A stretch of 64,000 nt of DNA, taken from NCBI GenBank assembly GCA_023231475.1, contig JALJEE010003284.1, positions 1 to 64,000 of the forward strand, read 5' to 3'. Source of the stretch: Seison nebaliae. Taxonomy: Eukaryota > Rotifera > Pararotatoria > Seisonacea > Seisonidae. The translations under genes were made by a program, and so were the position numbers. Shown here piece by piece: positions 5,932 through 62,853 of this stretch. The notes beneath the pieces are model-generated. The model was not told the DNA's origin. It saw only the letters and a list, made by a program, of their open reading frames with translations, and did not search any database. Position 1 is the first letter of the stretch. Every line of letters begins with the position of its first letter.

Positions 5932-8900
5932 ATGAATAATTATATAAAGATCAGGAAGATTGGGGAAGGATCTTTCGGTAAAGTATGGTTAATAAAGGAA
6001 AGAACCAATCAATTTCAACCATCATCCCCAAAAGTGGAAACTCAAGTTATGAAAGAAATCGATTTATCTAGAGTTCCTTCAAATATTTCCTTCCTTCAAC
6101 ATATTTCATCAAATTTAATTCTCGTTCATTGAATTCGAATAGTTGCGAGTAGCGGATAAAGGGAAAGCGTTAGCGGAAGTAAAAGTTCTAGCTAACATTA
6201 ATCATAGTTGCATTGTAAAATATTATGATTCGTTTCAAGGTTCAAGAATAAATTATTTTCCCTCATTCCGTCCATAACCACCAATTGCAGATTTAGCCAT
6301 ATTATGTATAATAATGGAATATTGTGATGGAGGAGATCTACAACAGAAAATTCTTCAACAAAAGAATCGAGTAAATGCAACTTATTTTGACGAAACATTA
6401 ATTACCAATTTGTTCTCACAAATAGCTGCTGCAGTGAAACATATGCACGACAGGAAGATTTTACATCGTGATCTAAAATGTGAAGTTCACAAAAAATTTC
6501 TTGCTTTATTAAATAAAAATATTATTCAGAATATATTTCTCTCAACAGGTGATCGAATAAAATTGGGTGATTTTGGAGTTGCAAAAATATTAACAGGGTT
6601 AGAAATATAATCATAATAATTTTTTATTATCTGTCTTTTGTAGAACTGTAGATTATGCATCAACATTGATCGGTACTCCGTATTATATGTCGCCAGAAAT
6701 TTGGTCGAATCAAAAATACAACAACAAAACGTTAAAATTTTTAAACGTTTGCTTATAATTTATTATTCTGAATTTCAGTGACATTTGGTCGTTAGGTTGC
6801 ATTCTTTATCAGATGATGTCGTTGAAGAATCCTGTTAATTCTTGTTTCATTAAATTAATTTTAATTCAATTTTTAACAGTTCGAATCGAAATCACAAAGA
6901 GAATTAATTTTGAAAGTTACCGGTAGAGGAACAGTAAGCGAACTGCCAAATCATTTTTCTTATGACTTACGCTTGCTTGCCAAACAGATGTTAAAAAAGT
7001 CTCCAAAAGATCGTCCATCGATTAATTTGATTTTTGCCAAATCGTTTATTCATACTGCTGCTTCAAAATTTATTCCAAATGAAGTTTCCGAGATAAAATT
7101 ATTAAAATTTATTCAGTTTGTTGAAGGAAATGGAAGAAGCGTTATCTCACACAGTTCTTCATGGATATAACTTAAATCGAGCTCCAGTCAAACCACAAAC
7201 TCCAAAGAAAAAAGCGATCGAATTGTCCAAACCGAAATTTCTTACAAAATCGAACAAGAAGAAGTTTTATTTGAAATTATGAAAGAATCTATTCAGAGAT
7301 TCATTCTTAAAATTATCCTATTAATTTAGTGAAGTGAGAACTACTTCGAAAAGTGAAGCATATTCGAAATTCATGAAAAAGTTAGGAGATACACATCACA
7401 TCATTCGATAATTAATATTTATGGAACGTCTTTAGACAAAATGAAGAACGGAAGAAAATGTTATCGAACGAAGGAAAAGTGATATTTTATTTCGAAATCT
7501 TATCAATAATTCTTTTGTTCATAGAAGAAAGATGTAGCATTACAAGACGTTTATTTCAAATTTTTCTGAAATATTTTTATGAAATTTTTAGAGAAATCGA
7601 ATAAACAAAGAACGAGAGAAAGGATGGAAACCGATTGTAGCAGATTATAGACCAGCAAATTACGGTCAAAACCACCGAGAAATTGTAAATAATGACAGAA
7701 TGAATGTTATTTCGAGGGAAAGATATAGTATGTATCATGATCTATTAGGAGATTTGAGAGCGAATAGAAATCAATTAAGTAACGTTTCACAACAAGCACC
7801 ATTCATGCATAATTATCAAAGACAAAAGTTGGAATTTTTAAGAAAAATAGAAAACAAATTTTTATCAGATCTGACAATCAAGTTCAAGATGAATATATAC
7901 AACGACGAAATGAAGCGTTGAGAAATAAAATTAATTACGAGAAGGTTTATAGTCATGATGACTATCAACGAGTATCTTATCGATCTCCCATCGCCCCTCA
8001 CATTGAAACGAAATCATCAGAGTCCGAATATTTAAGGAAATTAGAGGAATGTAGAATACAAAATCATCGAGTTACAATATTGGGTATTTTTCTAATAATA
8101 ATTTCATATTGTAATTCAGGAAAGAAAAGAACTTTTGGCGAAACATAAACCGTCCAATTTCCGATATCCTTATCAAAAGCCGAAATGTTCAGAACAGAAC
8201 GATAACATTGATGATGTATTGAAGAAATTAAATTTGAATGATAAACCCTTATCAGAAAAGCAAGAGGACAAAGAAGAGAGTAAAGATAAACGACAAATTA
8301 ACAAATCGAATATTCCAAAAGATGATAATAAATGGAATAAAAATAAGACTAAAGAGAAGGAATGGGATATGAATGGTCATAATACTGAATTCCGTCAATT
8401 GATTGATAATCAAACTGGAATAATTACAGATACGATGAATATGAAGACGGTAAGTAGTGCATCAAGTAAGAAAACTGATGAATCGGAGGACGACAGTTTA
8501 GGTCTCTTACAGAAACTCAAAAAGATTAAAAATGAGAATTTGGAGAAGATAAATAAAAAGTCGAATAATGGAATTCGATGTAAGACGGCGAATTTATCTA
8601 AAACAAAAACAATTAAAAAAGAGGTAAAAGAAAATGTTTTAGATGGTTTAGCAACGGGTAAATTTGATATGAAACATCCGACGGTTTCCATTTATCATTA
8701 ACTATTTGCCAATTTCTAATAATTTTACTTCCAGTTGTTAAGAACAGCATCAGTGCCAAATATAATAGTTGAGTTGGAAGAAAATGAAAATGAGAAGACG
8801 AATGGGATTAAAGTTGAAGAATTATCCGAGAATCTTACGGAAAAACCGATTATTCGAATTATGTCGAAAAAACGGAAAAATTCGGCACACCTAATAAAAA

Positions 8901-9639
8901 ATAAAAGTGAATCCGAAAATGACGATGATAATCAAAAATCAACATCTAACGACGATGATGATGATGATGATGATGAATATGAATTAATCACTTCTCAACA
9001 AATTTCTACAGTAACTTCATCAACGAATGATGATGATAATGATGATGAAAAATTAAAACGGGCTGAATTGAGACATGATATCAGTTTGAGATTAACAAAT
9101 CCAAAGATTCAAAAGAAAAGAAAACAAAATCTTATGAATGATATTGATGATATTACGTTGAGTACGATAGCGGAAGGATCATCTGAATATTTTACATTAC
9201 CAGACGATAATCCACTAGAGAATGTTGAAACAACAGAAGACGATTATTTCGAAGATGAATATGGTTCTTCTTTTCATTTCTTTTTCGAACTTTCTTCATT
9301 TTTTAGATGATCTTCCAATTATTCCGTCGAAGAGTAAAGTGGAAAATTTAAAGAAAGAATTATGTTGTCGTTTGGGAGAAAGAAGATTTAGAGTTTCTTT
9401 TTCTTTTTATTTCAAATCGTTTATAATTCAAATGAAAGGTTATTTACAATAGTATGAACGAATTGTTAAATCAAGATCCGATTTATACATCGAATGATGG
9501 TTATTACGAAAAAAAGAAAAAGATGAGAAAGATTCTAGAAGAAGCTGTTGGTAAAGATATTCTTGATAAATTATGGGACGATATGATAAAATTAATTACA
9601 ATCAAAAATATTTTGGACGTTTCTTCCTCCAAATCTTGA
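5932..9639 (+). CDS. Nek1: NEK1-like NIMA-related protein kinase, multi-exon
   Basis: Serine/threonine kinase of the NEK1 branch, known from centrosome, cilium and DNA-damage work. The kinase domain shows the Gly loop (GEGSFG, residues 11-16), the catalytic Lys in VMKEID, the catalytic HRDLK, DFG, and GTPYYMSPE. It is split by micro-introns at 6073-6142, after SFQ near 6239, 6485-6529 (HRDLKCE|NIFLS), and three more before 6880, all beginning GTT. Spacing to human NEK1 across the first junction (SR..AEVKVLANINH) is exact. Downstream, NRINKEREKGW, a YGQNHREIV segment and YLRKLEECRIQNHRERKELLAKH match the NEK1 coiled-coil linker. A long Lys/Asp/Ser-rich region (8.2-9.2 kb) precedes a conserved C-terminal block (VENLKKELCCRLGERRF, then MRKILEEAVGKDI). 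Exon joins between 7.1 and 7.6 kb and near 9.4 kb are not fully resolved. Confidence 0.85.
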
Positions 9640-9762
9640 ATTATTTTTCTTTTTGAAATCTTTTCCGATTAATTCAAATAAAGTCGTCTTGTGAATTGTT
9701 TAATAATTGTTTGATTGTTAATTAAAATAAATATGGAAAGAATTTGGAGAAAGAAATAAAAA

Positions 9763-11890: not shown

Positions 11891-14800
11891 CTCGACGTTA
11901 TGTGAGTGACATTTGGATCATGACAAATGGAATTCTGAGGAGAAGAAATGTTAAGTGAAGTTAATCGATAAATGTTTATGAGAGATTATAAAGAAAATAA
12001 TCGGTAGTGATTTGATAAGGAGACAAAAGAAACAGAAATCACAAAAGAAAATCTTCGTTACAATAACGTTGAGAAACGGAAAATTGATATGGAATGTCAA
12101 CAATCATTTTTGTTTAATACAAAACAGTGAATGTGCAGTCGATAAATGAAAATAAACAAATGTATCGATATATATATATATATATATATGACTGTCGGCA
12201 AGATGTTTATCAATATGACTTGAAGAAAATATGGAGTTAAAACATTCGTCTCATATGACAACGTAAATAAATGGAATCATCAGATGTGGTGAGTGAACAG
12301 CTGTAAAATTTTTATTTCTCACTTTGTTTGGATACGTTTGAAAGAATTCTATGACAAATTGAATACTGAAAATGGAAAGATATGATACACTATTCCACTT
12401 GACGACTACGAAACTATTAAACTTGGAACAATTCTGTTTTCATTACAAATGATATTTACTAGAATTTATTAGAATTTCTCAATTATAAATGTATGGAAGA
12501 AAGAAAATGAATGAATAAGTAAATGAAAAATGCTGCGAAGTGGAAATTGTGACAAAGAGACTACTTTATTCCATTTTCGTTATAACCGAATAACAAGTGT
12601 AGTTCAGGTACTTTATCTCAATACGTCTCTAAATTTCAATTCGAAAACTTCTCACAAATATTTTATGAAAAGCATTCACTCGTTAAAAAAAGTGGTTTAA
12701 TAAACTTTCTTTTTCCTCTCAATCATTCCACTAAAAAATGTTTCATAATTCCTACTTGCAACAGGAAAAAGTAATAAGGATAAATTGAAGTCGGAAACTT
12801 TAACGAAATTCTTTCCTGTTCTTCGAACACTACTACTACTATAAGTGTTAGTGCGCTGAATTAATATTGGATTAATAATATAATAGTTTAAGAAAATTGA
12901 TGTTAAACTTTCGTAAAATAACTTTTCTATTTATTATGAACGAAGTTATCATTTGGTTGAATACTCGATATTGGAAAGAATTAATTTCAATCAATTTTCT
13001 TTATAATTCTTCATTTCAAATCATAATTATGTCAAGTTGTTTTAGATGAATTTCTACAACAAATTAAATAACTGAAATAACAACAAGAAATAATTGTGAT
13101 ATTTCAAAAAAATTAGTTTTAAGTACTCTTCGAGTAATTGGAATAACTGGGACTTATTCCAATATACATTTTCAGATGACGATTATTTGATTTGAGACGG
13201 TTCAGATTACATAGTTTATAACTCAAATTACGTTCATCGAAATGATTAATAAAAATTTTATCACATCAATTAAATTTCTTCTCAGACTTCTGAACATCTT
13301 GGACGAAACATAAAAATATTTGTTCGTATAAAGATCTATTTTTTAGGGATTCCTTAATGGATCGTACATATTGATAATTTACTTCTTTTTCATACGATTC
13401 CATTTCACTTAGATGATTCTCAACAAACGAAGAAAATAGTCGAGAATATATTGAAAATGATACTTTCGGTTGAAAAAAAAAAGAAATCTTTTAGTAAATA
13501 AGTTTCGTGAGGTAAATATCTTTTAGGATTTGTTTATCGGCTTCTCAATATCTTTCATTCTAATTAGCCTACTGTGAATGTTTTAAGCGTTGATCGAGTG
13601 ACAATAATCTCCCTTTTCCTTTATTATAAAAATTCTCGCCCTCAAATTTATTATTAAGGGAATTATATCATTATATTCTCTTAGATCTCATCTCAGAGAG
13701 TGGAATTCACAGATTGATTTTCGGTAAGTCCCTCTCAATTACATGAATGAAACGAAAATTTTCTTTTCAATCGATAAAAAATGAAAATTTTAAAAAATAG
13801 AAAAAATTATGTTTATCATATAATTGATCGCTCCATTTGCCATATGGAAACAATTGTCGAATGGGCCGTCTGTCTTATCTACGTACAACGACTGTTATTC
13901 GTCCATCAAAAAAGAATTACAATATATTTACGACGTAAATTGGAAAGCATCGTCTATGGACAAGGTAATCAACGAACCGAATGACAACTGATTAACCGAC
14001 AAAGAACTATGCGAATATTTATCTTTTGTATCGAGATTTCCAATGAGCGTATCTACTGTCAATCCTCAACTAGTTTAGTATTGTCATTAAAAAAGAAAAG
14101 GAGAGTAAAATAAAAAATCATTTCTTTCATCACCGATAAATAATCGATATATCTGGTTGAATGTTTGAGATTGCCCAAAATAAAAATGACCATTGTACAT
14201 TCTAATTGACGATAAAAGACGGAAAATGATAATTTGAACCAGAAATTAAGAAGAGAACAATAAAAGTATCGATATCCCAGTCGATTCTCATACAATGTTA
14301 TGATAATGACCGTTATGTTATTATTGTAGATAGGAAAGATCGGCAATTGGTGAATTGATGTGATTAATTGGAAATTGTTTCCTTATTTATTTTTCGCTCG
14401 TTCGTCTCTTATTGTTTCGATGGGTAAAAAATTCTCATAATTCCCAAAATAAAATATTCATTTTCATTCGACGATTATTAATCGATGTGATCACGTGAAA
14501 TGGTTTCTATCACATGATATCTTTATTTCAATTAAGTATCTGAATTATAATCGTTTTTTTTTGAGGAATTTTCATCTTATCACTCCCATTTCTCTCATTC
14601 TTAAAAGACACTTCTAATGATTGTTGAAGTGCGAAAATTTCTTTCTTTTTTGATCCAATTCTAAATGAACAACTCTAAAGTTAAATGCTACTTCTTTTTC
14701 TTCTTTGTAATTGAGATGGATAGGTTCATCATTGGCAGTCGTATATCATTTGATGATAGTCTATCATTGATAGAAATGATAGAGTAATGAAATAGAACAA

Positions 14801-17800
14801 TGACGAATTACATAATATACTTGTTTTAATGCATGGTATTTCATGGTCATCATTCTTAATCATCTCTCAGTTGATGTTTTGGCATGTTGTTCATTAGAAT
14901 TTTTATTAAAATTAGATGTATGAAGTCAATGATAAATATTATCAGGTAGAAATACTAAAATGCAATGGAACTGAATGACGGAAATATCGTGTGTCTTATG
15001 TGATAAATGGCGATAGCAATACCATTTAATGGAAGAAATTCAATTATATTTACATATTATAAATAGATGGAAAAGAATGATAATGAAAGGAAATTTCTTC
15101 TAAATTTCTTTGTAAAAATTTATTATCGATTAAATTCATTTGCATAAAAGTAAAAACAATATTTTAAGGTGATATATCGAATGGACTGATTTTTCGATAA
15201 AGACAAATGTGGAAAGAATAACTGAATGAACTTGAAATTGAATTATGAAAAAATTAAGTTCGCTAAGCAAAAAAAACTTATCGATAAATTAGTAATTAGG
15301 ATAATTTTGAGGTAACTGACGTTAATGAAATACTAATAGACTGTTGACATTCAATTTAGTGTCAGAACGAAAGAGAATAATCTGGAAGTGAAAGAGAATA
15401 AGAAAATCCATATACACACTCAACGAATAAACTTTCCCGACTGATAATATTTATGAGACGAACAACCATCATAATGCAAATTGAAGGTTTCCACTTCCTT
15501 CATTTCCATACTAGATATGTGACTACTACATTTGTATATTATTTATATAAGACGAGGTTATTCCAGGTGATATTGCGTGTAAAATTGATTCTTTCTTTTT
15601 TTCTTTCTTTTGTGCATATCATGAAAACATTTTTAAAATATCATCAAAAATAACGGATGTTGTTGAAGAGAGTGGGATTTCATATGAGGCCTATTCACAT
15701 GCAATGAGTAACCATTTATGTAATTTTCCACTTCATTCTCCAACACTCCGACGAACCACATTTTCCGCTTTCTGCCAATATCATCATCAAGCCGACAGAC
15801 ATCGAATTATTTCTGTTTAATATCGATTCCTGAGAATTACGAGCGGAAATTCGACAAAAACTTTTCATTGAAAATGTGTAAAAGTCAATTAGGTTCAACT
15901 ATGCGAGAAGAATTTTCATTCTAATTTCCAACCGATGATTCTTCACAGTAACATGTCAATCATCAGGAATATGGTAATGGAATGATGAAGATTTTTCTTC
16001 ATTATAACTAATATAAACGAAAGGAAGATTTTGTTCAATAAAATAACTTATAAAAAATTGAATGAGAAGTTTTCGTGTATGAGAACTTTTGTTTAAGATA
16101 AACTTAATCATGAAATTGTGTGAAAGAAGGAAGAAGATTGTTGTGAAGGAAGAGAAGTATATTCTTATTTGAAGAAAGATTATTGATTATTGAAATTCTC
16201 CTGTACATTCTCGATTTTGTCAATAATTCTCTGGAAAATGAAGAATAAGAAAAGAATTTGATAAGATCCTTATATGATATTCATCTTCATCAGTAATCCG
16301 ATATATGAAAGTACTTAGAGCAAATAGAGGTGAAAAAAAGGAAGAGTTATTGTTTGCACAAATGCTCCACACACTGCTTCATCTAAACAAACAGATAGTG
16401 AAATTGATAGAAGGATTGAGAGAATATCTTCGGTGTTATCCATATCTCCTATGGCGGCTCACGAAAATTGATATCTTTTTCAAAAAAAAATACCGTTACT
16501 TAATAAAATGTGGAAAATTATCTTTTTGCATATTCCTCATTAATACGAACAATATAAGTGGAAGTTTATAAGACTACAATGGAATGATGTTATCGTAGGA
16601 AATGTGTTGAGAACAGCAGGAAACGAAAGCAGATTATATTTTTCATTATTTCTCCATTATAATACCATCGTTATTATACAAATCATTATACATCTTATCT
16701 TTTATAAGATAAAGATAGTAGTCGATACAACGAATAAAAATATGACGAAGAATGATAATATTTATGATGGAAAATGAATTCGATGAAATAACTGAAAAAA
16801 AATAGATGTTTAGATATAATGATGATTTAATGAACATTTCGCGTTACCTCCTATTGGTGTTATGAATAGGCCATCCCTAATACATCTTGAGATGACTAGA
16901 ATATTCGGTTAACCATAAAACATAGAAAAAAAGAGAGAGGAGGAGTGAGAGAGAGACAAGTGGACAAACTAGCAACATTTAATTATCATTCATGTCTTAA
17001 TTGCAATTTGATTAGATGAATAACCTTTCGTGACGATGTACTAGTTGGCTACCATTAGTCGATGAAAATAAATCGACTCTAGTACTTCTGAGAGTCATCG
17101 AACATCTGGTTCCAATATGATTTTTTAGAAACCACGCCGTCTTCTTTATTCCGTTTTCATTAACTATCAAACAAATTCTTTCACTTCATTCACTTTTCAT
17201 ATGAAAATTTTCATATTTTATTCTTCTAATCGATATTGCCCGAATGACTAACGGTTAATATTTAGGAATAAACCGGAAAAGAAAAAATACTTAAGCGTCT
17301 TAAACTTGAACATTATTCTTAATAATACTAATAATTTTTGAAATAATAATTCATCGACTTTTGACTGAACATACGTCGAACGAAAGAAGATTATTCGATG
17401 AAACTGAAGGAATTCGATGTTAATGATAGTTTTGAAGACTATAAATATGCATGAAGTGAATTACCTCTTAAGAAATTAGTTAATTAGCCAAGGGTCATTT
17501 AGAATAATTGCTCTTCTTAAATAAATTCACCTTTCTTTTTCTAATACGGAGAATAATGGAAATATCTTGCGAAGGTATTTTGACAAATCTATTCTCAATT
17601 TGTCTTTAACGGTCGATTGAATGATAAGAATTTTTCACACAAATTAACAAAAAGGATATTATCTCATCTCATAAAATGTTCGATTTTCGTGAAATTCCAT
17701 TATTTATATTTTGTTCATTTTTCTCCAAGACGATGGGGGAATGATTTACAAGAAGATAATTTATCATCATGTTTATTATCATAATAATTTTACTAGGAAT

Positions 17801-18810
17801 CTGTTAAAATCGAATATGCATAAATTGGAGAAGAATGCATAAGGGAGAAAATTAAACATAAAAACTGATCTTTCCAGTTATTATCGACCAATAATTTATT
17901 AAGATGTCTTACTTATTTACTCTTTCTTACGAATTAACAGAATATTGTTTGACATCTCTCAACAAATTAGAATTCCTCAAAGATTCATTATTAGTAAGAT
18001 GATTATTTATATAAAGAATGTTTTAACGTACATTCTAGAATAATAGAGTGAAATGAGAGAAATAAACATATTCTCTAATAAAAAAAATTTCTTTTGATTT
18101 TGTTTATATGCTAGAAAAATAACACTCTTGTATTTTCCTATTGTTCTCGATGAAAAACTATGGTCGGAAATGGGATTAAAAAAGAATGTATTATGCTTGA
18201 AGCCTAATCCTTCAGACCGTCAACAGTTTCATTCAGCCCAAACATCCGAATGTTCCATTTCGTTTTGAAATGTCTTACAACTTGTTAATTGTTTAAAGTT
18301 AATCAGCCAAACTCGGAAATCCAACTAAACTGCTATAAAATATAGATAAGAAAATTCGTTAAAAGTTTAGAATTTAGAAATTAAATAATTGAAATGATGA
18401 TCCTATTTTTAGAATGATGACTTTAGTTTCAATTGTGAATTTCAACAATTCTCTTTTAAATTTAACATTCAACTTCGATTTGTTCATTCAAATAAAAAAA
18501 AGATTGAGATATAAATATTATACTTAATTAAAGTAATTTTGGTATTTTAGAAGTAGTAAATTTCAAAAATTAGTAAATTTAACTTTATCAAATGAATTGT
18601 GAAAATAAATGGAATTATTGAAAAAAATGCGATTGGTCGACCTTTCCAGCTTAATATCATATCAAAAAAATAAGAGAGAAAGATATTCATAAAAATTTTT
18701 CAAATAAAAATATCATTTTTAAATGTGTGGCGTAATAATTTGAAGATTTGGTAAAAAGACAAATTTCTTTATTAGTTTGTAAATCATCTGAAAATTTCCA
18801 GTTTCACAGA
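11891..18810. other. 6.9-kb gene desert
   Basis: No open frame here has coding character: the longest are 60-95 codons with no conserved pattern, and none is flanked by splice sites that extend it. The sequence lacks transposon ends or rRNA/tRNA-like blocks that I can recognise. It contains a TA microsatellite at 12168-12189 and short inverted repeats, for example ATCATTTGATGAT near 14747-14759. In a genome where neighbouring genes are often only 100-400 bases apart, a stretch of this size probably holds cis-regulatory DNA or an untranslated transcript, but nothing proves it. Confidence 0.5.
12168..12189. repeat. (TA)n microsatellite
   Basis: Eleven TA units in a row inside the desert between 11.9 and 18.8 kb. 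Confidence 0.9.
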
Positions 18811-21800
18811 ATGAGTGAGAAGAAGAAGAGAATGGTGGAAGAGGAAGAAGAAGGAAATGAATTAATGACAACTAGAGAGAAATTGAATGAGAATGGAAAT
18901 GATTTGTCTTCGGATGATATTTCAACTTTTCTCCAAAATGATTCAATTGACAAATATGGTTTAGATAACATATATCATGTTCAAATGAATGTAATGGAAC
19001 GACGATATGATGAAGTGGCGAAAACGACATTTCAGCAATTGAAAGAATTTCATGAGAATCTCCTCGTCAATGTCGAATTGAATGATGAAGAAAAATTCAA
19101 ATCGATTAATATCATTAGTTATGTGATGATTATTGAGAATGATTTCCGAAGATTTCTCAATTTTATCAATTATTTTATGATAGAAAAAAAAGATTTTTTT
19201 TCTGAAGAAATTCGATGTCATTTCATTTTGCTCTTTCAATGGATGATAAAATCGAATGAAAAGGAAATGGAAAATGATGATGAATTGAGTGGAATGATCC
19301 AGAATATCTTTATCAATTTCTCATTAAAATTAACTGATATGGATTGTATTCGACTTCTTTTATTTGAGAATGGAATGATGAATTTGGAAGAAATGGATTT
19401 GAATGAATCAATTCGACTAATTCGAGTAAATTTGAATGTGTTTTTGAAAACATGTCGAATTATTATTGGACAGAAGAGATTAAGGAATTTTATGACGAGT
19501 CATCTTTTCTTTCAATTTTCACATTTCCAATTGAATTTGTGGAAGAAATGTGAATTGATTTATGAGAATTTCCAACATTTTTATTTATTGAATTGTGAAA
19601 TTTTAGAGGATTGGTTCAATTTCTTCCAAATAACATTTGAAGATTCGACTGAATTGAAGAATGACACAAAATTGGAGAATTATTTGGAGAAGAATTGTTC
19701 CATCATTCTCGAACATTTATTTGAAATGTTAACAAATTTAGTTCATGGAGAGCATGGAGAAGAATGTAATGAATTGATTCTTCGAATTATTTGTGTGCTG
19801 ATTCGATATGGAAGATTTTTGTCGAATGGAAAATTGGTGAATCAGATGGAAAGTATTTATCAACATTCATCAATTCAACAAATGATCGATAATGAAGGAA
19901 TAAAATTACAATATTTATTAAGAAGATTAATGGAAGATGATAATCGTTTGGAAATAATTAAAAGGAATTTCGAAATTATTCGACAGAATATCACCGAAAA
20001 TAATGATGAAGTACAACGATTATTCTATTGTGTCATCTTTGAGAAAGATTTATCAATAATCAATTATTCAAATGGTATTTTTGATTATGAGAAGAAATTG
20101 AAGGAATATTCATTAACATCCATATTTCTCCATCAAATGAAATTATTAAAAGGGAAGAAAGTGTTGGAATTTATTTTGGAGAATAATCTCTTTTTCAAAT
20201 TCTTTAAAGAAGCGAAAGATAATCAGAATCATTGTGATAGATATTTTGATTGTTATATAATTCTGTTTCAACTCATCGATTATTTCCATGAAAACGTCTT
20301 ACAATTATCGATAATGAAACAAGGTATTAGTGAAGAGGAGATGATAATGATTGATGAAAATAATTTTTCCGTTTTATTCCAAATATTCCATTGGAATGAA
20401 TCATCGATCAATTGTAAGATATTGCGCTTACAATTATTGGAAATGATCAGTCATCTCTTATCACATTATGAGGAAGATTTGAATGGAAATGAATTATTTC
20501 GAGAATTATTATTACCGAATTTTGAAAATTTTATTCGAATTTATTCCACAAATCAATTCAATGGGAAATTATTGGGATTCATATCCAATATTTTAATTGA
20601 AACGTTTTCCATTTTGAATGATGGTGATGGACGATTAATCGAACGAGATAATTGGGAATTATTTCGTACGAACATGTTCAATCGAATGAATTTGCGAGAT
20701 GATAAACGACGAAATGTTCCATTTACTGATTCGATAAATATGTTGACGATGTTGAAAATGGCATGTGAACATGAATGGAATTTGTTCGTATTATTGACAG
20801 GAAGTGAAAATGAGAAGGTGAATCAAAATTTTTTGAAATCATTTAAACATTTATTCAATGAACCATTATCGACGAATGTGTTGAATAAGGGCGCGTCATT
20901 ATTATTGAGTATTTGTGAGAAGATTGGAAGAATTAAATCGAAAGAAGATAAATTGAAACATTTCATTTCTTTAAAAAATATTTCGATGATATGGCCAAAA
21001 TTACTGATGATTTTAGAGAGTAAATGTCAATGGTTGACGAATAATCAACGAATAAATTGTTTAAGTAATACGATGAAATTGTTGATTTATTATCGATTAT
21101 TAAATCGATTGAATTCGATCGAGAACAATTTAATAAAATTTCAACGTCTCGTTAATTATTGGTTAGAGAATTTGTGTAAGATTGAAGATATATTTCATGG
21201 AGGAAAAATGAATGATTTGATCGAATCTTTTGTTTATCTTTTCTCCAACGTTCCCAATGAGAAAAATAATTCAATCATTTCATTTAAAATCATTCAAATC
21301 AATTTGAATAACATCCTCCAATTTCTTTCAATTATCCTTCGAAGTTGTCATGATATGGAATATGGAGAATTTGTCACTTTGATAAATAATTCAATAAAGT
21401 TATTATTCCTTCAAACAATTCATTCTAATGGGAAATCATCGATATTAATCGATATGACAATTGTTGGAAAGATTGTGGACAAGTTGCGAGAATTGTTTTT
21501 TAATAGAAATTCCGTAACGAGTAATGATGAAATTCATTGTAATAAATTTTTTATTTCTTTAAATTATTTATTGAAGAATCAACAAATGAAACAGATCGAT
21601 TGGAATAATGGTGAAACATTAGAACTCTTCCATCCATTGCAACGTCTTCTCAAACGATTCTTAATGGAACGGAATGATGACACGATAATTTATCGACAAT
21701 TCTCTCAATTATTCACTTTATTCATTTCTAATAACGACATCTCGTCAAATAATCGACACATATCTCCATTGATCAATAAGAAGATTCTTTATAATTTCAT

Positions 21801-47713: not shown

Positions 47714-48107
47714 TCTTAATCTAAAAAGAAAATTCTAAAACAACTTCTACTACCTAAATAAGAAATAAATGTTTCCTTAAATCTAAACGTCCAAGAATCG
47801 ATAAATCGATAACGAGAAAAATGAAACGGATTAATGCTCCTACTCAATTTACAAACAGATATATTTTGAGTTGCTCCTAATAATAAATCTAATGCAAATT
47901 CAAACACAATTTTCTTCATAATTACAAATATAACTTTAATCATTTTTCAACATTTCGTCGACCTGTTAAAATTCTCTTAATCTAATGAACACCTAAAGTA
48001 ATTCATTTTACCTTTATGCAAAAGTTGGACTACCCAAAATCAAAATGTTCAAACTAACTGAATTAAGATTGTATTAGCATTTAAATATAGTATTCTCATT
48101 GGGGGAA

Positions 48108-48870
48108 GGACAAAAGAACCACGGTGCAAAAGAGCCATAGACAAAAGAGACACGCATACTTCTAAAAATAAGATATTTACTCTATTACAGATAATTCATA
48201 CAGTTTTTCTTTATTTCTTCGAAATATGATAAAAAGTCCATCGTATCAAATGCGTCAATTAAGTTTTTCAAATGAGCAGTAAGTGTTTTCTTCATTTTTG
48301 GATTTTTATTCTTTTCTCCTTCCAAAATCCTTATCTCAATGTATGTTTCAATTTCTTGGATGTTGTCCAAGAATCGGAATATATCTACCCGTTAACCCGA
48401 GGATATTCAATTGAAATAATTATTGAAACTTTCACTAATATTATTAGTAATAGAAGGAGTGCTGTTTTTCCGCATTGCTTCGAAATTGTTCCAAACATGA
48501 ATGGGAAAATGGTTATTTATCAAATTATTCCTAATATCCCGATAACCAATGAATTGTTGATGGAAATAATTAAAAATCGGATCCCAAATTAACGGAGCCT
48601 TGTGATAAAATTTTTTAAACTCGAGTTCAACTTTATCTGTAAATTCCTCTGTAAATTTTGGAAAACCAAAATCCAGACATGATAATCCTGTACAGTCCTA
48701 TACCGCGTTTTACTTATTTTACTTCACTTTGAGAGGAATCCATTCCAATTCATGACCCGACTCGAATCAAAGCATGAACCTGACTTTTTATGTTTCTGCT
48801 GTTCGAAAAAAATCAATGCCTGTGTGGCTCTTTTATCTCGTGGTTCTTTTGTCTCGTAGCTCTTTTGTCC
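48108..48870. mobile_element. Small transposon-like element with inverted ends made of 16-bp tandem repeats
   Basis: The left end (48108-48154) and the reverse complement of the right end (48822-48870) share GGACAAAAGARCYACG and each contain three units of about 16 bp of the form AGACAAAAGAGCCACG. The right-end units are spaced exactly 16 bp apart; the left ones 15-16. The core of about 670 bp includes a plus-strand frame (48272-48592) and a minus-strand frame (48370-48185); neither shows a recognisable transposase. No clear target-site duplication is visible. Such tandemly repeated termini suggest transposase-binding arrays of a DNA transposon or a MITE-type derivative. Only one copy lies in this window. 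Confidence 0.6.
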
Positions 48871-48880
48871 TAGACTTTTC

Positions 48881-49609: not shown

Positions 49610-51143
49610 ATGAGCAAATTAGATCGGTTGTATCGAGGAATTGTTATTTCCAAATTCTTTAAAAGTGGTTGGGGATCACCGAATTTGTTGCATAAGTTTG
49701 TCGATTTCCTTCGTACAACTTTTTGGATAATATAGCTGATGAAGAATTGTTACAAATCATCATAACTACTATAGGAGTCGTACGAATTTCCTTAATCAAT
49801 TCGCTTATCCTTTACCTGAATTTCGAGTTGAAAAGGTTTCTATTTCGAAAATGTTTATAATAGACAAACACTTTTCTTTCAGATACGAGAAACGAACAAT
49901 TATCAGACGTACAACGTTAGATTTCGAACGTCGTTTTGGAATTGGTGGATTGATGAGATTGAGAATGATGTTGTTGATATTGCCGAGTTTGTTTTGAATA
50001 AATTCTACTAGCGAATTCGAATAAGGATTTCAGTGTAGAGATGGTCGTTCCGAAAACTGTGAATAAGAATGAAGATATGAATATCATTATCCATCTAGCT
50101 GGTACTGGTGATCATGTTATTATTTATTTTTCTTATTTTTTGTGTATTTCTCCTTTTTTTTTCGTTTAGTATAGTTGGAGACGAAGATTAATGTATGCAT
50201 TACCTTTAGTCTCCAAAGGTAATTATGTTTCGATGATTTTAGAGAATCCATTTTATGGTCGAAGGAAACCCAAAAATCAATTGTTATCATTTATCTCTTT
50301 TATCATTTTCATTAACATTTCCATTCATTTAGACGATCAGCTTTAAATAAAATTTCTGATCTCTTCTTAATGGGAGGAGCGTTAGCAACTGAAGTATATC
50401 ATTTAATCCAATGGACGAAACGATATGGATTATTCGAAGGAATGAATTTGAAATTTTGTGTGACAGGAGCATCGATGGGAGGTCATATGGCTGCTGTCAG
50501 TTCAACATTTCTTCCAGAACCAGTCATCTGTATTCCTTTTCTCACTTGGTCTAGTGCGTCGTTAGTATTCACACATGGTGTAATGAGTACATCATTACCA
50601 TGGAAAGTTTTGGAAAAAGAATTAATGGAAAATTTTGATGAATATGATAAGAAAGTTTTCCAATATTTTTCCGATATTCCTGGCGCTGTCAATGATAATA
50701 ACATATCAGAGACACGTCGAATATTGATGAAATTATTAGATGAAACAACATTTGTCGGTCATTATCCTCAACCGTTCGATGACAAGAATAATTGTGTTGT
50801 CACAGCAGAATATGATGCTTATGTACCTCGTTTTCATTTTATTCCTCCGTTGGTTCCCAAACCGAAAAAAATTCTGAGAAATAAAACGAAAGATCTTAAA
50901 GGAATGATATCAAATGCTTTTGATAACACGATCGTTAAAAAGGAAATGAATAATTCAAATGATTATATCGTATGGCCGAATGCATCTCATTTGCAAATGG
51001 TGAATCAAGGTCATGTATCGAGTATCATGAATTATGCTGATATCTATCGGTTCACATTTTATTCGTTTTATTATTTATTGATATATATTTATTACAGAAC
51101 AATTATTATGAATCGAATGAATTATTTATCAGTTTCAAATTGA
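49610..51143 (+). CDS. ABHD18: ABHD18 (alpha/beta-hydrolase domain protein)
   Basis: Starts MSKLDRLYRGIVISKFFKSG, matching human [24 protein letters not shown]. Later exons give the conserved order IHLAGTGDH|YSWRRRLMYA, SMILENPFYGRRKPKNQ, SALNKISDLFLMGGAL, the nucleophile elbow GASMGGHMA, then FLTWSSASLVFTHGVMS, and near the C-terminus EYDAYVPRFHF plus the His-containing QGHVSSI. The protein is predicted to act in mitochondria and has recently been linked to cardiolipin metabolism; the substrate is not visible from sequence. Introns are 40-60 nt with GTT donors (VEK|GTTTCT, GDH|GTTATT, NQ|GTTATC, the last one just before RTIIMNRM). The join between exon 1 (ending near 49712) and the exon around 49775 does not come into phase with any GT-AG pair I tried, so a frameshift or unusual intron is possible. 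Confidence 0.8.
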
Positions 51144-51497: not shown

Positions 51498-54378
51498 TCA
51501 AATTTTTTTCTTATTATAATGATAGTTAGTGATGGATCTCGATGAAGTTAACAGTTTTCGAGAAGAAAAATATTTAGGTTTACGTAACGAGTTTCTCAAA
51601 CTCTTCACTGTAGTCATTCGACACATTCCTGATGCTTCACTTTCATTAATTAATCGAGTAACAGGATTCATTCCAATCAAATCCAATAACGAGATTAACA
51701 TTCCACGACCAACCTAAATAGAGAAATAATTTGGAAATGAAAATTTCATAAATCAGAATAAAAACATTATAATAGTTTTCTGGTTGGAGTATTGTTCTTG
51801 CAGGACAACTCTTCAAATTCTCATTATTTCCTTCCATAGCTAATCGTTGAAGAGATAAGACTAATGACTTATCCGTTCGATTTCCGTAACCACTCACTTT
51901 CAACTTCTCTAATCGTGACGCTTCTTTACAACTGGCATAGGAACATTCCAAAGTATAAGAATGAACTATTCCTAAATGTGTATACATTGCTACACGACCA
52001 GCACCAGCTTTTGATAAGTCTCTTTTGTCCTTCATGTACATATTCCGTTGAGTGAAATTACAATTAGTGAAATCGACATATTTCGAATTGAATGCAACAA
52101 TTCTTGGGAATAATTGTACATCAATCTAATAATAATGTGGAAGAAAATGAAAAAAAGAATGAAGCAATAAAAGTAATGAAAAAATGAAACATTTCGTTCA
52201 TCGTCGAAATGATTTCCATAAAAGAAACAACTCTTTTTACCTGCATGTGCATGCAGATCGATGTACATTATGACACCACTATGTTGCCAATCGATGAGAT
52301 GTAAAAGATTTTCATACCAATTAAAATCTTCCGTTTTTATCATATGATTACTCATAATATGTTTACTAGAAATTGCATCAGAATCAGAATCATCATTAAC
52401 TGATTGTGAATTGTGATCACTATCTGATAAAGTATTATTATTATTATTATTATTATTGTTGTTATTATTCTTATTCTTATTGTTTAAATGAAGAAACAAA
52501 TGACTTTTCCTTCTACGTCGACGTACGAAATTATCTTTTGAGAATGATGTATTCGATTTAAATAAAGACATTTGATGATTAGTTGATGATTTCGGTTTCA
52601 TTGATGATTTCGGTCTTTCAATCTCACAGAAAATATCATTTGGACTTTTCTTATTAAAGTTTCTTTCTACTTCCAATAAAACATTCATTAAATTCAATGA
52701 ACCATTTTTCGATTGTTGTTCGAATGACATATTCTCCAAATATTCGAAAATTGTTTCATGTGATTTGAAAGGAGGGAAAGTTATCTTCTCTCCCAAACCT
52801 TTCGATTTCAAATTTTTCAAAAATGTCAATTGCTCTCGATGAGAATACCGTAGAAATCTTGCCAACCATGCTAAAGTTCTTTCTCGATTCGGTTGTGCTA
52901 ATCGATAAAAGATATGATAATAAGTTAATAAAAGTTTCGCTGCGTAAATGGATGGATGTGACAATGGTGATGGATTCTCATAGTAACGATTCAAATTATC
53001 TCCAAAAGCATTTGATCGATAATTGCCCATTGCAACACCATCGGGATTTAATAAAGGAATTAATTTGAAAATGAAACAAGATCGTAATAATTTCGAATGA
53101 ATATTTTCTTCATCCAACAGAAATTTCAATAATCCATTAAATACAAAAGATGATGGCGTTTCACCTGGATGAACTCGACTGGTTATGAATACGATTCTTT
53201 TCTGTAATGCAAATGATGGTCGAAATAATTCGAGAACGGCATTCTGTCCTTTATATTTCCCACATTCTTTCTTCATCTTATTCCGTTTAGTTGTCATATA
53301 TAACTCTTTGAATAACAATTGAAATGATGACGGTTTTTCACCGTTCGTCGTCCCATTTTCATTCACTAATAAACTTTTGAGTAAAGTTCTCGGATTATCA
53401 ACTTCTAAATTCTAAATCGAATAGAATGAATAATAAAGAAAATTAAAAAAAAAAAACGAACAAAATTCCCAAATGGCATTTCCGAATGAATATATTGATG
53501 ACATCGTTTCCTTTTGTGGACATTAGGAAATAAATATTGACCGTCAATCGTCGGTTCTCGTTCATCCAATGGATGAAGTTGCATTCCATCAGTTGAAGAA
53601 ATTGTCAACAAATCAACATTTCGTTGACATCTTGAATGACAAAGAAGTTCACGATAAAAATAAATTTTACTTTTATTCTGTTTTATCGATTCATTATCAT
53701 AGAAATGACCATATTTCTTATCTAATTCATTCAACATATTCTGAGTCTCTTCATAACCGAACGGATAACAATAAGCAAACGTTACGGTAACTGTTTCCTT
53801 CTCCAATTGATCATTCATAATGTGAATGAATGACAAATAGAAACTTCCATCTACAGTACTACAAACACAACGACTCAAATTGATACGATGCAATTTTTGA
53901 CCATTATTTATACGATACACTGGAGTATGACCAGATGTGAATAATTTTTCTTGACGATTCATATTCATAAAATTGAATCGAATAACTTTCAATTTCTTTG
54001 ATGTACATTTGAAATGGAACCAACTTCTGTTCTCCAATAAAAAATGAATAAAGAGAATTTTATTCAATTAAATTAACCGATTTCCTGTATAATAATTTGT
54101 CGATTCACAATCTCCATTAATCCAAATATTCACATCATAATTGACAGATTCTATTAAATAATTATTAATTGGATGAACATATAAAAAGAGCTTGTAAGAC
54201 CTAAAGATAATTGATATAATTTCTGTAATTTCTTATTATCTTTATTGAATGGTCGTCTCATATGATCGATTAAGATCGTTTGGAAACGTTTATCCATATC
54301 AATTTCATATTTTTGCAAATTTCCTGCATCTGCTGCCGCTTCCACCTGAACTTCAGAAGTAACCGCAGTGTCAATCAT
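51498..54378 (-). CDS. AGBL5: Cytosolic carboxypeptidase CCP5/AGBL5 (tubulin deglutamylase)
   Basis: M14D zinc carboxypeptidase that removes branch-point glutamates from tubulin. Six exons: 54378-54201 (VEAAADAGNLQKYE, family FDSGNLxxVE), 54150-54078 (YDVNIWINGDC), 54026 to about 53472 (GNR|SWFHF, NFMNMNRQEKL, FAYCYPFGYEE), about 53411 to 52184, about 52126 to 51755 and a last one from about 51719. Zinc ligands are in RVHPGETPSSF (HxxE) and DLHAHAGKKSCFFYGN (His); LNPDGV and NLNRYY match the family, as do TLECSY and the C-terminal VGRGMLISLLDLIGMNP, which align with human CCP5 (ECNY, VGRAMAIAALDMAECNP). A low-complexity insertion with poly-Asn separates the two halves of the peptidase. About 870 residues, similar to human. 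Confidence 0.9.
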
Positions 54379-57273: not shown

Positions 57274-57310
57274 AATGATAAGAAATTTTTATAAAAAAGT
57301 AAAATAATAA

Positions 57311-58780
57311 TTATTCGATATCTTTATCATTGTTAATACTCCATTGGAAATAATCGGGACGTGTTGCCGCATGATATTCATCGATCAATTCCCGTACAAC
57401 TTCAGCGGAATGATGGAATTCTTCAATCGAATCAGCAAACATCGGTTGTTTCCGATATTGTTCTAAAAATGCTTCTCTCTTAATAAATTTATCGAAATGT
57501 TTCAATGTCGTTGAGAATAGATGTGAGATCGATGTATGATTAGCTAACATTAGACCGCTAATTCGATGTTCCGTTTTCATATATGGTGAACGACGAGCTA
57601 CGGCCACCTGAATGGAAGCCGGACCCCAATCGATAAATTTGATGGGTTCCCGTTCCTTAATTCGAAGTAGACTATCATTTATTTGCATAATATCAACTTC
57701 GCCTTGCAGAATTTTCAAAATAGAAATATATGCGTGTTGTATGGTTTTAGATGGATCTTTCGCCAACATATTTGAATTGACATTAAAATTATTATTATAT
57801 TGAGAATAATGAGATGCGGCGAATGAAGAAACCATCACATTTTTAGGTTTCAATAATCTTCTCATAATATCAATTGTGGATGTTTTTCTGATTTCTGATT
57901 CGACCGTTTCTGATGTTAATGGCGTATAAGAACTAATAAGGAAATGTAATCGTGGTGTTGGTATTAATGGTGAGATCATTGAAACTAAATCATTATTCAT
58001 AAAATCTGGATAACGTAAAGGTGCAGTAGATGCCGCCATAATAGTAGATACAAATTGATTTATTTCCGATAACGATGGTTTATCAATATGTAATCGTTCT
58101 ACTGCTATTCGATCTAACGCCGTATTATCTAATACCACAACAGAATCGGCATGTAATGTTAATCGTTTCAATGTCAATATGGAATTATATGGTTGAACGA
58201 CAACTTCGGAAACTTCGTCTTGTTGAGGAAATACAGAATAAGTTTGAATTAATTTTCCTGAATATCGATCATTCAAATGTTCGAGAATATGAGAGCCTAA
58301 ACCAGATCCCGTACCACCAGCAATTGAATGACATAAAACGATTCCTTCCAACGAATCTGTATTATCAGCTTCTCGATCGATAATATCGAAAATCTCTTCG
58401 AATAATTCTTTACCTTGTTCATAACCGATTGCCCAATTATTTCCTGCCCCACCACCTTCTTTTGATACATAAATATTTTCACGATTATACAAATTCTTAT
58501 AATCAGATGACATCATAGTATTGATGACTCTTGGTTCCAGATCGAGTAATACAGCTCGTGGAATGAATTTCTGATCATCAGCTTGATAGAAAAAAACATC
58601 TTTCCGATCCACCATCGAAAAATCAGTTACATCAGCAGAAGTTAAACGACTCCTCTCCACATTCGGATCGATCAAACCATCACTACTTATCGCATGTTCC
58701 ACACACAACTTCCTCCAGAATTCCATTCCGATCTGATTTCCACATTGTCCCAATTGCAACGTAATTATTCCACGTGGCAT
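57311..58780 (-). CDS. TUBG: Gamma-tubulin
   Basis: Microtubule nucleator, intronless, 489 residues (family usually 450-475). From [20 protein letters not shown], the GTP-binding loop GGTGSGLGS (155-163), [20 protein letters not shown] (98-117), [17 protein letters not shown] and the NPxMP-equivalent region all match gamma- rather than alpha/beta-tubulin; the [20 protein letters not shown] region and [17 protein letters not shown] are standard for the family. The C-terminus is not extended by an acidic tail as in alpha/beta. It binds the GCP complex; a probable GCP gene lies at 2.8-5.6 kb. It is convergent with the Ly6 gene, 37 bases separating the stops. Confidence 0.97.
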
Positions 58781-59045: not shown

Positions 59046-61009
59046 TTAAATATAAAGATCAACATCAGTTTTCGAAATTCTTTCGATTCCCAATTTCTGG
59101 AAATAATTATCAATTTTTTCTTGATCTATTTCAAAAAAGGAGAAATATATTTCAAATTAAAAAAGAAAAATTACAAATATAATTTAAACTTGCTAAATTG
59201 ATAATTTTCTTCCAATAACTTCCGTAATCTCCCAAATCGTCCTCACCTGTCATTTCATCATTAGGACCTTTAGAATCGAAAAGTGAAATTTGAGAATATG
59301 ATTCTAATAATTGTCTCATATTATCTTCACTCAATGCATTCATTTCTAATAATTGTTTAATTTTTCCTTTTTTCGGTCGTGGTCTACCTTTCATTATTGG
59401 CGGAATATTCTCAGCTCGTGGAATACGTTTTGTTGAATTATCCTCACAATTTCTCTTACGATAACGATTATTTTGAATAATGTTATTATTCCTAAAAACC
59501 GATTGTGCTGGCATCAAATCTTTCGAATTACAATTCCGAATAATTTTTATTGGAGTTTCAGCGATAGTCGTTACACGAGGAATCGTCATCATTTTATATT
59601 TGACATTTGGTGGTTTGGAATGATAATTATTTTCAATTCGATTATTCATTGTTGATCGATATGGAATTTCTTTTGAAATTTTTCTCTTTAAATTTCCACG
59701 TTCCAATTTATCTTGACCATTCAAATTGTGAATTATTTTATAATTATAATTTTTCTTAGAAATATCATCGTCAATCTCTTGACCATCAACAGATGATTCA
59801 TTTAATGTTAATGTTGAAATTGGTTGAGATGATGAATTTGAATCTATCGATTTCTGTGTCGAATCAATAAACGATGAAATTGTGGTGGAAGGTTGAAGTG
59901 AATGATCTGAATTAATTTCTTTCAATTTGAATCTTTTCGATCTTCTCATCTTCTCGGAACTTCCCAATTTTCCTTCATTTCTCAAGCACATATCAATCAA
60001 TGAGCAAATATCGACTTTCTTCTCTATTTCGAATTCATACAACTTCCTCAATAACATATCTAAAAATCATCATAATAAATTTTAAACGGTTTTTAATTAC
60101 TAACAAAATTCTCTACTTTGTTCCATTTTTGGTGTATTTATATGATGAGTGAATGTTTCCTTCAATCTGGAAAAATGAAACGAAAAATTATTTTCATCAA
60201 AAAAATTAACTGAATTAGATAATCGGAATAAGAATGTTTATCGCTCGGGAATTTGTTAATTATTCGATGAATTACTTCATAATCATATTTTATCTCATCA
60301 GTCAAATAAATTTCTTTAATAAAACGTTGAATGAATTCGTGAGTCTCAGTCAATGTCCATTTACCCACGGAAGAAGTTTGACCTAAAATAATTTATAAAA
60401 ATTTAAAAAAAAAATATTAAAATTGAAATATAATTTAGATGAACTTTTATAATGTGCTTCTTCAAAATTCTTTCCTGATATTCTTTCTAAATCCGAAAGG
60501 AATTGTTTATAGCAAGTCGAATGATATTTTGCTTTCTTATCCACCAAACCAGAAACATGATAAAAACGATAAATGTAAAGTGGATGAATTTTAGATAATT
60601 CTCGAATTTTTCGACATGTTCCTTGACGTTTCGCCAGAACGATACGCTCTGACGTTTCCATTTGACAGAAAATACATTTCACATAATCCACCACATACAA
60701 ATCGTGAAGAAATTTACCGTTCTGATGGTTATGATTAGGTAGGTTTATTTTGACTTGAAGAAAATTTCCGTTTTTTTTTGCTAACATTGACATGAGACAT
60801 TCGGAATTGTCGATCTCCTTAAACTTATGAGAACAGATGTAGGAGATTTCTTCATATTTCAATTCGGTATGTTTCACCGAATCATCAAAATTCAGATCTT
60901 TATATCCATTCCGTCTCAATTTCATATCCTCTTCCGATTCATAATCCTCAATCGCTTTCGACAACTCTTGGAACGAACTATATTTCGCATTATGCTTCAA
61001 TTTCACCAT
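59046..61009 (-). CDS. ZSWIM3-like zinc-finger protein (FAR1-type domain, multi-exon)
   Basis: Exon 1 (61009 to about 60447): FSSYEELxxxIxxYE-like start SSFQELSKAIEDYESEEDMK, then YEEISYICSHKF, SECLMSMLAKKNGNF, and LPNHNHQN. The C..C..H.H arrangement is the FAR1/WRKY-GCM1-type zinc-binding N-terminal domain of ZSWIM1/3. A second metal site follows: VKCIFCQ ... YHSTCYKQF (CxxC...HxxxC). Splices HYK(S)|QTSSVGKWTLTE, DYLI(Q)|LKETFTHHINTP and SREF|YMLLRKLYEF link to a 300-residue exon, nuclear by texture, with an AT-hook-like KGRPRPKKGK. A final exon (about 59118-59046) ends IDNYFQKLGIERISKTD. All three resolved donors start GTT. Domesticated-transposase origin is typical for this fold. Function unknown. 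Confidence 0.6.
59621..59728. repeat. Source copy of the duplicated 108-bp segment
   Basis: The intact coding copy within the ZSWIM3-like gene (minus strand). Its partner lies at 55747-55854 and differs at four positions. Confidence 0.85.
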
Positions 61010-61433
61010 TTGTTCTCCGATAAATTTTTGATAACGATAAACCTTTTTCGCCTACTTAATTTTTTGAGAGAAAGTCTTAAGCTTAAAAATAGCACAATTC
61101 CACTTTGGAAAAAATTGAGCTGAAAATTTTTGAAGAAAAAATTTGGAAAAAAATTTATTGATTTACAAATATATTTATTATGAACCATATTTTTATTAAG
61201 TGAGGTTATTGGAAGACTAGGTATTTGAGAGAATAACTCCAAAAATTATTATTCTTTATCGGACTTTTATTTTTAGTTATTTAAATTTTTTGAAGCTTTT
61301 TTATAAGTTTTCTTCCATTATCAGTTCCATTAGAATCTAATGGAATCTAATGAATAGATACTTCAGCAACAATCCTTTTATCTAATTAGAATTTTAGCAA
61401 TTAGAATCGAATGATTAGAAAATGAGGAACGAT

Positions 61434-62853
61434 TTAATTAATCAAATTCAAATTATTTATTTTTAAGATGATTTGTTGTTCGGGAAGATTGTTATTCAAT
61501 TCTATAATTCTTATCATACGATTTATAATCTTCTTGTATTTGTCGGAGAAGTGAATTGGTAAATTTTGAAGCATATCATTGTTCATCGACCGACTCAAAA
61601 CATTCAATTGACAAAAAGAAGTTTTTCTTAGTTTCTCCTCATTCGAAGACTTTTCCGATGGAGATTTCGTGATTTTCTCACAGATATTATAAAGAATCCG
61701 ATTAAGTAATTTGAATCGAGCGATCTTATGGATAATTTTATTCGAATGATTGATCGTTAACGGTTTATTGCTTCGCATGAAACGGAAAAATTCTTGAATA
61801 TTTGATGAACGATATTGATTTCCTAATTGTGATAGAAAAGTTTCTTTTAATACTTCGAAGATCATTTGATCAAATCTGGAAATATGATTGAAAATAAATT
61901 TAAAAAAATATTATAATATAAAAAAACTTTAAATATTTTTCAGCTAATGGTCTCATTTCTTCGATTTTTTTATTAGGTAAATAGTTTCCATTAGTTTTCT
62001 CATTTTGAATGAATGCAAATAAATAGAAATCGATATGGATTTTATGAGAGAAGAGCAACAATGATAAATAGCTATACTCTTTCAATAAGATTAATTGATA
62101 AGAATTTTTTAAACTGTTAATCCAATAATTTATTTTGTCGAGATCTGAGGAATGAGGTAAAAACTGCAATTTATCTTTTTGGCAATTGCTCAACAATGAT
62201 TGACATAATGAATTCCTGATATTGTTAATACATTGATAATGGAGATATTTGTTCGATATCGAATTCTTTCGTAGACTTTCATATTGAAAGAATTTTTCCG
62301 AAATATTCAGTCGTTTCATCGAAAGGAAAAGTTCTTTGGCATCCGAGAAAACTAATCCCTTACAATGATTAGTTAACCAAACTTCGTCCTTCAGTTTATT
62401 CATTAATGTAACAAAAGGATCTTCCAATAAAAGTATATTTAATGTATGAACATTCACTTCAAATTTACGACGTATCTTCTTTCTCTCGGCTAACGGAAAT
62501 AAATTGTATTGAAATGACTTTCCGGTATCTAATCGATTTTGAGCGATATTCTTCGATAGTATCGTACTTGGAATATTATTCTTAATGTTATTTCGAATAA
62601 CAACATACGCTGATTTCGTTCGATATTCCAAATTGTTTATCAATTTTAATTTATTCAAAATATTTCTAAAAATGGGATTTTGGAATTCTCCAATATATTG
62701 CACCAAATAAATATCATGAGTTCGATATTTGTCCTTTTCATAATTATCATCCTCATTCGACATTAAATGACTCCAAACCACCCATATGAGGAAGCATGCT
62801 CCAACATTCAGAAGAAGACGCTTTCTCCCAAACATCATTTCAAAATCGTTCAT
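61434..62853 (-). CDS. Gal3ST-like sulfotransferase (type II membrane), possibly inactive
   Basis: Two exons. Residues 13-30 (LLLNVGACFLIWVVWSHL) form a type II membrane anchor. The lumenal part follows the galactose-3-O-sulfotransferase layout: IYLVQYIGEFQNPIFRNIL (where the PAPS 5'-phosphosulfate loop HKTxxS is expected), FEVNVHTLNILLLEDPFVTL (family FIxIxRxPxxRF), and INSLKNSYQLILLKEYSYLS with LLLFSHKI (family IxxLxxxFxLVxIxEYxDESLxLLxxxL). A GTT intron near 61918 joins YLK(F)|DQMIFEVLKETFLSQL, like family LYxxFNxTFW. The key Lys/Ser of the PAPS loop is missing. About 450 residues. Golgi location is inferred. Confidence 0.55.

Follow-up and report, generated by a model that had tools for sequence, protein, structure and literature searches.

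GTT donor sites in short introns of Seison nebaliae and a matching base in three of the four U1 snRNA genes found

Short introns in the genome of the rotifer Seison nebaliae begin mostly with GTT in place of the usual GTR, and three of the four U1 small nuclear RNA (snRNA) genes found in the same assembly carry a base that pairs with the U at intron position +3. The DNA analysed was a stretch of 64,000 nucleotides (nt), positions 1 to 64,000 of contig JALJEE010003284.1 in GenBank assembly GCA_023231475.1 (the window), together with further pieces of that assembly. A donor consensus shifted to GTT was confirmed for the short introns; the donor shift, the U1 substitutions, the fit of one to the other and the unchanged motifs of U6, U2 and U5 can all be shown from the DNA sequence. 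GTT donors and a matching base in three of four U1 genes suggest a joint change of the intron signal and of its reader, and we consider it probable that U1 and the donor sites co-evolved at +3, the consensus moving from GTRAGT to AAA/GTT (the slash marks the exon-intron boundary) and the recognising RNA moving along with it. That the altered U1 genes are expressed and their RNAs pair with the donors, that the change came about by such co-evolution, and that U5 compensates at the exon end, we infer from genomic sequence.

The window lies on the contig labelled C148 of an assembly of 36.03 Mb in 846 contigs, and was combined with 26 other 10-kb pieces of that assembly into a sample of 27 pieces (324 kb). 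Genes were predicted with a donor-neutral gene-finder, which gives all GTs the same weight as donors and so cannot favour any base at +3; the coding score, acceptor and intron length were learned from the 324-kb sample, and donors were kept neutral for six rounds. The first neutral pass placed 109 introns (67 GTT) and the final pass 130 introns (106 GTT) in 91 genes. The donor logo was restricted to introns of ≤85 nt (n = 112), GT and AG being demanded by the model; the 18 introns of >85 nt, mostly doubtful and with T at +3 in 56%, were excluded from it. A second pass was run with the learned donor matrix, which is circular for the logo. The median length of the 112 short introns was 51 nt; a median of 57 nt is given for the orthonectid Intoshia linei in the cited passage of PMC6543705.

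Under the donor-neutral model, GTT opened 96 of the 112 short introns (86%), with 27/32 in the window and 69/80 in the other pieces, which bears out the preliminary description of the window, where about 33 of about 38 introns had been counted as GTT. Short introns were present in 22 of the 27 pieces and were in majority GTT in 20 of these, the remaining two pieces having one intron each. By comparison, the share of GTT was 41% in the sample as a whole (27,522 GTN) and 43% for the 185 other GTN lying ≤30 nt from donors. Position +3 was T in 86%, A in 11%, C in 2% and G in 2%. T then fell to 39%, 28% and 46% at +4, +5 and +6, so that the peak occupies a single position; +4 was divided between A (38%) and T (39%), +5 was flat (G 21%) and +6 was T or A. 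Exon ends were A-rich (A at −3, −2 and −1 in 51, 52 and 54%), with G at −1 in just 24%, and the resulting logo is AAA/GTT without the +5 G. Acceptors were mostly TAG or CAG behind a T-rich stretch (position −3: T 50%, C 37%, A 13%). The scarcity of the +5 G and the ordinary acceptors were thus both described correctly from the window. Neither GTAAGT nor GTGAGT occurred among the 112 short introns, and one GTGAGT occurred among the 18 doubtful longer ones. With the donor matrix, 36 of the 38 introns of ≤85 nt in the window were GTT; the exceptions, GTATTC at 42585 and GTCTTA at 54200, had been singled out as such before, and several donors called GTA by the neutral model shifted to a neighbouring GTT. 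A lineage-wide change had also been suggested, and the shift holds across the 27 pieces sampled from this one assembly.

The T at +3 could reflect a high AT content or intron starts rich in T, with no change in recognition needed. The sampled pieces are indeed 66–72% AT, intron positions +7 to +12 hold 54–62% T, and the decoy donors AT, TT and CT, run through the same pipeline, also reached 49–57% T at +3. The peak of the GT introns is nevertheless confined to +3, and the full set of decoys (GC, GA, GG, AT, CT, TT, AG and CA) gave 25–57% T there with no GTT-like peak. The binomial probability of 96/112 was 1e-20 for the local background of 0.43 and still 1e-12 for a null of 0.54 and 3e-8 for one of 0.62, these last two being the range of intron T content at +7 to +12. 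Composition also leaves the substitution in three U1 genes unexplained. On the decoy donors and the single-position peak an artefact of composition or T-runs was rejected, and we regard it as extremely improbable.

Introns anchored by homology gave the same picture, 21 of 22 being GTT when pooled. All six introns of the window's NEK1-like kinase domain were GTT, and after splicing the protein aligns over residues 1–285 of 293 to NEK1 (PDB 4apc); all six were GTT also in POFUT1 (L027), which aligns over residues 1–334 of 342 to PDB 3zy2. IFT172 (L012) contributed seven modelled junctions within the displayed alignment to PDB 8bd7, of which six were GTT and one was GTATAT, the last of the seven being counted without visible target residues. 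The others, one GTT intron each, were from TF_AP-2 (L025), where the intron lies within a Pfam stretch equally long on both sides, from a METTL16-like gene and from the first intron of U1C, the latter two within Pfam matches of the spliced proteins. In one Pfam comparison of five predicted proteins, TF_AP-2 was the only one used for the tally; the CCP5-like protein (no Pfam match) and the symporter, calcineurin-like and Mur-ligase-like proteins (gapped Pfam matches) were left out. Among these uncounted models, the symporter has six introns, four GTT, one GTG (341 nt) and one GTA (152 nt), and the calcineurin-like and Mur-ligase-like models have two each, all four GTT. Five further GTT introns beyond the anchored stretches were also uncounted: the second intron each of TF_AP-2 and of U1C, together with three of IFT172, of which one falls in an undisplayed part of the alignment and two beyond the query. 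A stretch of IFT172 left unspliced by the model resembles another GTT intron by eye and was not counted.

U1 genes were identified by a family search of the assembly in which 41 of 293 candidates were scored. Four genes exceeded the Rfam gathering cut-off for RF00003 (97.4 to 112.9 bits vs 69.5) over model positions 1–166, and a search by exact pattern (5' end and first stem) recovered the same four and no extra copy. The genes have the cloverleaf and the Sm site, and their 5' ends lie in the usual register; the U1A loop is present in three of them. In that register nucleotide 6 of U1 faces intron position +3 and nucleotide 9 faces −1. L001 and L003 begin AUACUAACCUG, L004 begins AUACUAACUUG and L002 begins AUACUUACCUG; the canonical 5' end ACUUACCU, which pairs with GUAAGU, is present in L002 and not in the other three, which stay U1 by structure. 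In those three (the A6 genes) the U at nucleotide 6 is replaced by A, and L004 additionally has U for C at nucleotide 9. By the register, A6 pairs with the U at +3, and U9 of L004 with the preferred A at −1.

The fit of these changes to the donors was ranked against all alternatives of the same kind. U6A was first of the 33 single changes of the canonical 11-mer, raising the mean number of Watson-Crick pairs with the 112 donors from 4.99 to 5.74; with 5,000 random GTs as a control the gain was smaller (4.29 to 4.50). The double change U6A+C9U was second of 495 (6.04), narrowly after U6A+G11U. It could still be argued that the A6 genes are non-functional and their base change coincidental, with proteins, or U6 on its own, reading the donors, as has been proposed for Entamoeba, which has GUUUGU donors (PMC6018208) and for which the cited passages report that no U1 snRNA was found (PMC6018208, PMC13292270). 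This we judge very unlikely, given three copies with bodies 64–67% alike, all with A6 and all over the Rfam cut-off, and a substitution that is the best of 33.

The place of L002 in such a system is less clear-cut. The U1A loop reads AUUGCAC in the A6 genes and AGAGCAC in L002. A 3' motif, TAATTAAACTTT, lies 8 nt past the A6 genes and is matched there at 12, 10 and 12 of 12 positions, at 12 behind U5 and at 10 and 11 behind two of three U2 genes (7 behind the third); L002 matches 9 of 12 at a different spacing, and U6 likewise 9. The third U2 gene (L034, C796:78598-78799), which is diverged and lacks the 3' motif, scored 78.7 bits vs 135–139 for the other U2 genes. On the loop and on a 3'-motif comparison that is biased (see below), the A6 genes are favoured as the working U1 set, and L002, with its changed loop and poor motif, may be a relic. 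It is unlikely to be a contaminant, since L001 and L002 face each other on the same contig, 1.5 kb apart.

L002 may, on the other hand, still serve. Two U1 RNAs could divide the work, the A6 form reading GTT and the canonical form reading the GTR minority or performing another U1 task, for example guarding against early polyadenylation; we give this division of labour a serious chance, if somewhat less than an even one. The 5' end of L002 is intact at 11 of 11 positions although its body is just 62–65% identical to the others, which suggests selection, and of the 16 non-GTT donors among the 112, eight pair better with canonical U1, seven with A6 U1 and one equally with both. Against it stand the absence of GTAAGT and GTGAGT from the short introns (the one GTGAGT being among the doubtful long ones), the move of several GTA calls to a nearby GTT under the donor matrix, and the possibility just raised that L002 is a relic. 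A fuller history can be offered tentatively, though it seems to us less likely than not: the lineage would have re-coded its 5' splice site by a split of the U1 family, with A6 copies coming to read nearly all introns (GTT) and a U1 of ancestral type being retained for a distinct task or for a small class of introns.

Several points weigh against co-evolution of U1 and donors at +3 and should be set beside the evidence for it. Both the splice junctions and the U1 genes are known here from DNA alone, and the argument draws on one genome. The GTT share climbed from 67/109 to 106/130 as acceptor and length were learned. Short introns were placed about as readily with decoy donors TT (119) and AT (108) as with GT (112), so that only the +3 peak and the homology, not intron number, single out GT. 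When duplex energy over 11 nt was considered in place of pair counts, A6 U1 was better for 71 of the 112 donors, equal for 7 and worse for 34. The motif TAATTAAACTTT was derived from a set without L002, and U6 also matches at 9 positions, which biases the 3' comparison; an upstream element shared by the snRNA genes was looked for and no clear motif was seen. Finally, a canonical-ended U1 gene survives in L002 and could be the main one.

U6, U5 and U2 keep conventional reading motifs. U6 has an intact ACAGAGA (one gene found), loop 1 of U5 reads GCCUUUUAC and the U2 motif reads GUGUAGUAUCUG, both canonical. With a GT start and a (C/T)AG end after a pyrimidine tract, the introns are of U2-type GT-AG character. 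The U1C zinc finger was matched by its Pfam model over all 38 positions. U12 snRNA gave no match in a search in which the control was equally silent; GTATCC was found in 0/112 short donors, and AT donors were disallowed in the model. A change in U6 as the cause was rejected, as ACAGAGA is unchanged in the one gene found. The preliminary description had suggested altered recognition of the 5' splice site through U1, U6 or a splicing factor; this is supported for U1, whose 5' end is changed in three of the four genes found so as to pair with the U at +3, and not for U6.

Loss of METTL16 or SNRNP27K, which in yeasts accompanies a changed preference at +4 (PMC10581693), could in principle have shifted the donors here as well, and A at +4 is weak (38%, with T at 39%). 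A METTL16-like gene (Methyltransf_10, NPPF motif) and an SNRNP27K gene (SNRNP27, QYMNRKGG) are however both present, so that the donors do not seem to have changed along this route known from yeasts, and the pathway concerns +4, not +3. Loss of either gene was rejected on these grounds and we hold it to be highly improbable.

Co-evolution of U1 and donors would operate as follows. An A6 U1 (AUACUAACCUG or AUACUAACUUG) would pair through its A at nucleotide 6 with the U at +3, and in one copy the change at nucleotide 9 would add a pair with the preferred A at −1; U1 would hand the site over, and the unchanged U6 (ACAGAGA) and U5 (loop GCCUUUUAC) would complete the reaction. Donors have been divided into U5-leaning and U6-leaning classes (PMC11732430, cited passage). 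In loop 1 of U5, the run of U would pair with the A-rich exon end, from which we infer that this genome leans to U5, and this contact may make up for weak pairing of U6 at +4 to +6.

Introns of the NEK1-, TMF1-, ABHD18-, CCP5- and ZSWIM3-like genes of the window were also followed gene by gene, with all gene names of the window except NEK1 and gamma-tubulin taken over from the preliminary description. In the NEK1-like gene (forward strand), alignment to NEK1 places the introns aga/GTTCCT...ATAG (6073–6142, 70 nt), aag/GTTCAA...GCAG (6240–6290, 51 nt) and gaa/GTTCAC...TCAG (6485–6529, 45 nt), and gene model and alignment together place agg/GTTAGA...GTAG (6598–6643, 46 nt), aac/GTTAAA...TCAG (6731–6778, 48 nt) and cct/GTTAAT...ACAG (6834–6879, 46 nt). 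Five more GTT introns of this gene (7828–7868, 8071–8119, 8684–8734, 9264–9306 and 9393–9438) come from the coding model only, as do those of the next four genes. The TMF1-like gene (forward strand, 42127–44263) has ten short introns, which in the neutral pass were eight GTT, GTATTC (42585–42633) and GTAAAA (43372), and in the donor-matrix pass nine GTT and GTATTC, the GTAAAA donor being relocated to GTTAAA at 43378. All three introns of the ABHD18-like gene (forward strand; 50116–50169, 50283–50332 and 51050–51097) are GTT. On the reverse strand, the CCP5-like gene (52126–54200; protein without a Pfam match) has three GTT introns and one GTCTTA (54151–54200), and the ZSWIM3-like gene (59126–60444) has four introns, of which 60383–60444 and 60167–60210 were GTT in both passes and the other two changed from GTAGAG and GTAATT (neutral) to GTTAGT and GTTTAA (donor matrix).

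A longer intron with a GTAAGT donor had been claimed in the MRTF-like gene (forward strand, 40283–40520, 238 nt) and taken as a sign of a possible second, long intron class. It was not confirmed: the TAA inside GTAAGT closes the reading frame, and splicing there would give just 20 extra residues, so that the intron may not exist and the sole example of the class may be a stop codon. With canonical U1 persisting in L002, a separate GTAAGT class is possible, and it is mainly this surviving gene that speaks for it.

Other features of the sampled DNA were noted in passing. The gamma-tubulin gene of the window (57311–58780, reverse strand) is without introns, carries insertions of about 12 and about 22 residues relative to five aligned proteins, and is 55–64% identical to animal gamma-tubulins among the matches listed (best 120); the best-scoring match, labelled camel, has a score inflated by an internal duplication. 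The gamma-tubulin matches listed show no leaning to lophotrochozoans, and neither they nor the POFUT1 matches listed include a close relative. For POFUT1, the best named among the matches listed (best 120) are mollusc, brachiopod and annelid proteins with up to 48% identity, and the nine best named are ones that we take to be lophotrochozoan. An intronless open frame of about 1,600 codons occupies 18811–23619 of the window, and large intronless genes adjoin intron-rich ones; two stretches of 6–7 kb (about 11900–18800 and 30600–36800) were gene-free in the final neutral pass. At 48107–48871, inverted repeats of about 30 nt (81–86% complementary) flank 0.7 kb, with the end motif repeated, and resemble a decayed DNA transposon or miniature inverted-repeat transposable element. 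A predicted gene at L018:833-3311 resembles a pieced transposase (hAT-like by eye).

The 5' end of U1 is among the most conserved RNA sequences. A joint change of U1 and donor consensus, if true, would amount to a compensatory switch of U1 and its target that took place naturally and across a genome; it would mean that nature can re-code the two together, and would make testable how such a switch passes its mixed stage, which the four U1 copies may still record. No report of a U1 change matching a +3 shift in an animal was found among the matches listed, most subscription papers lying outside the search, and the only full-text match to the letters of the A6 5' end concerned C. elegans promoters and was judged unrelated. 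In a survey of yeasts, ACUUACC of U1 is given as invariant wherever U1 was found (227/230 yeasts and 9/10 outgroups) despite a donor shift at +4 (PMC10581693). The genes described here share with canonical metazoan U1 (RF00003) the cloverleaf, the Sm site, the U1A loop (in three of four) and the usual 5' register, and differ in having A at nucleotide 6 in three of four genes and donors that are mostly GTT, not GTR. In the planarian Schmidtea mediterranea (PMC6312358) a C-to-U change in U1 facing −1 has been described, as in L004, but as a neoblast-enriched variant beside standard U1, and the cited passages describe no change of consensus and none facing +3. In Fritillaria borealis, likewise an animal, intron ends have changed throughout the genome, but there, according to the passages cited, the 5' ends of the two U1 versions are conserved and identical and U2AF is duplicated (PMC13326754), whereas here the U1 5' end itself differs and the introns are still GT-AG. 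Entamoeba histolytica shares +3 U donors in most introns (PMC6018208, PMC13292270); where those passages report no U1 snRNA, four U1 genes are present here, three of them changed to match. In the genome of the diplonemid S. specki, finally, a standard U1 5' end is likewise found beside an altered one, but the alteration there is a C stretch whose complementarity to the donor logo is said to be comparable (PMC12621601, passages cited), whereas in Seison a single substitution fits the donors.

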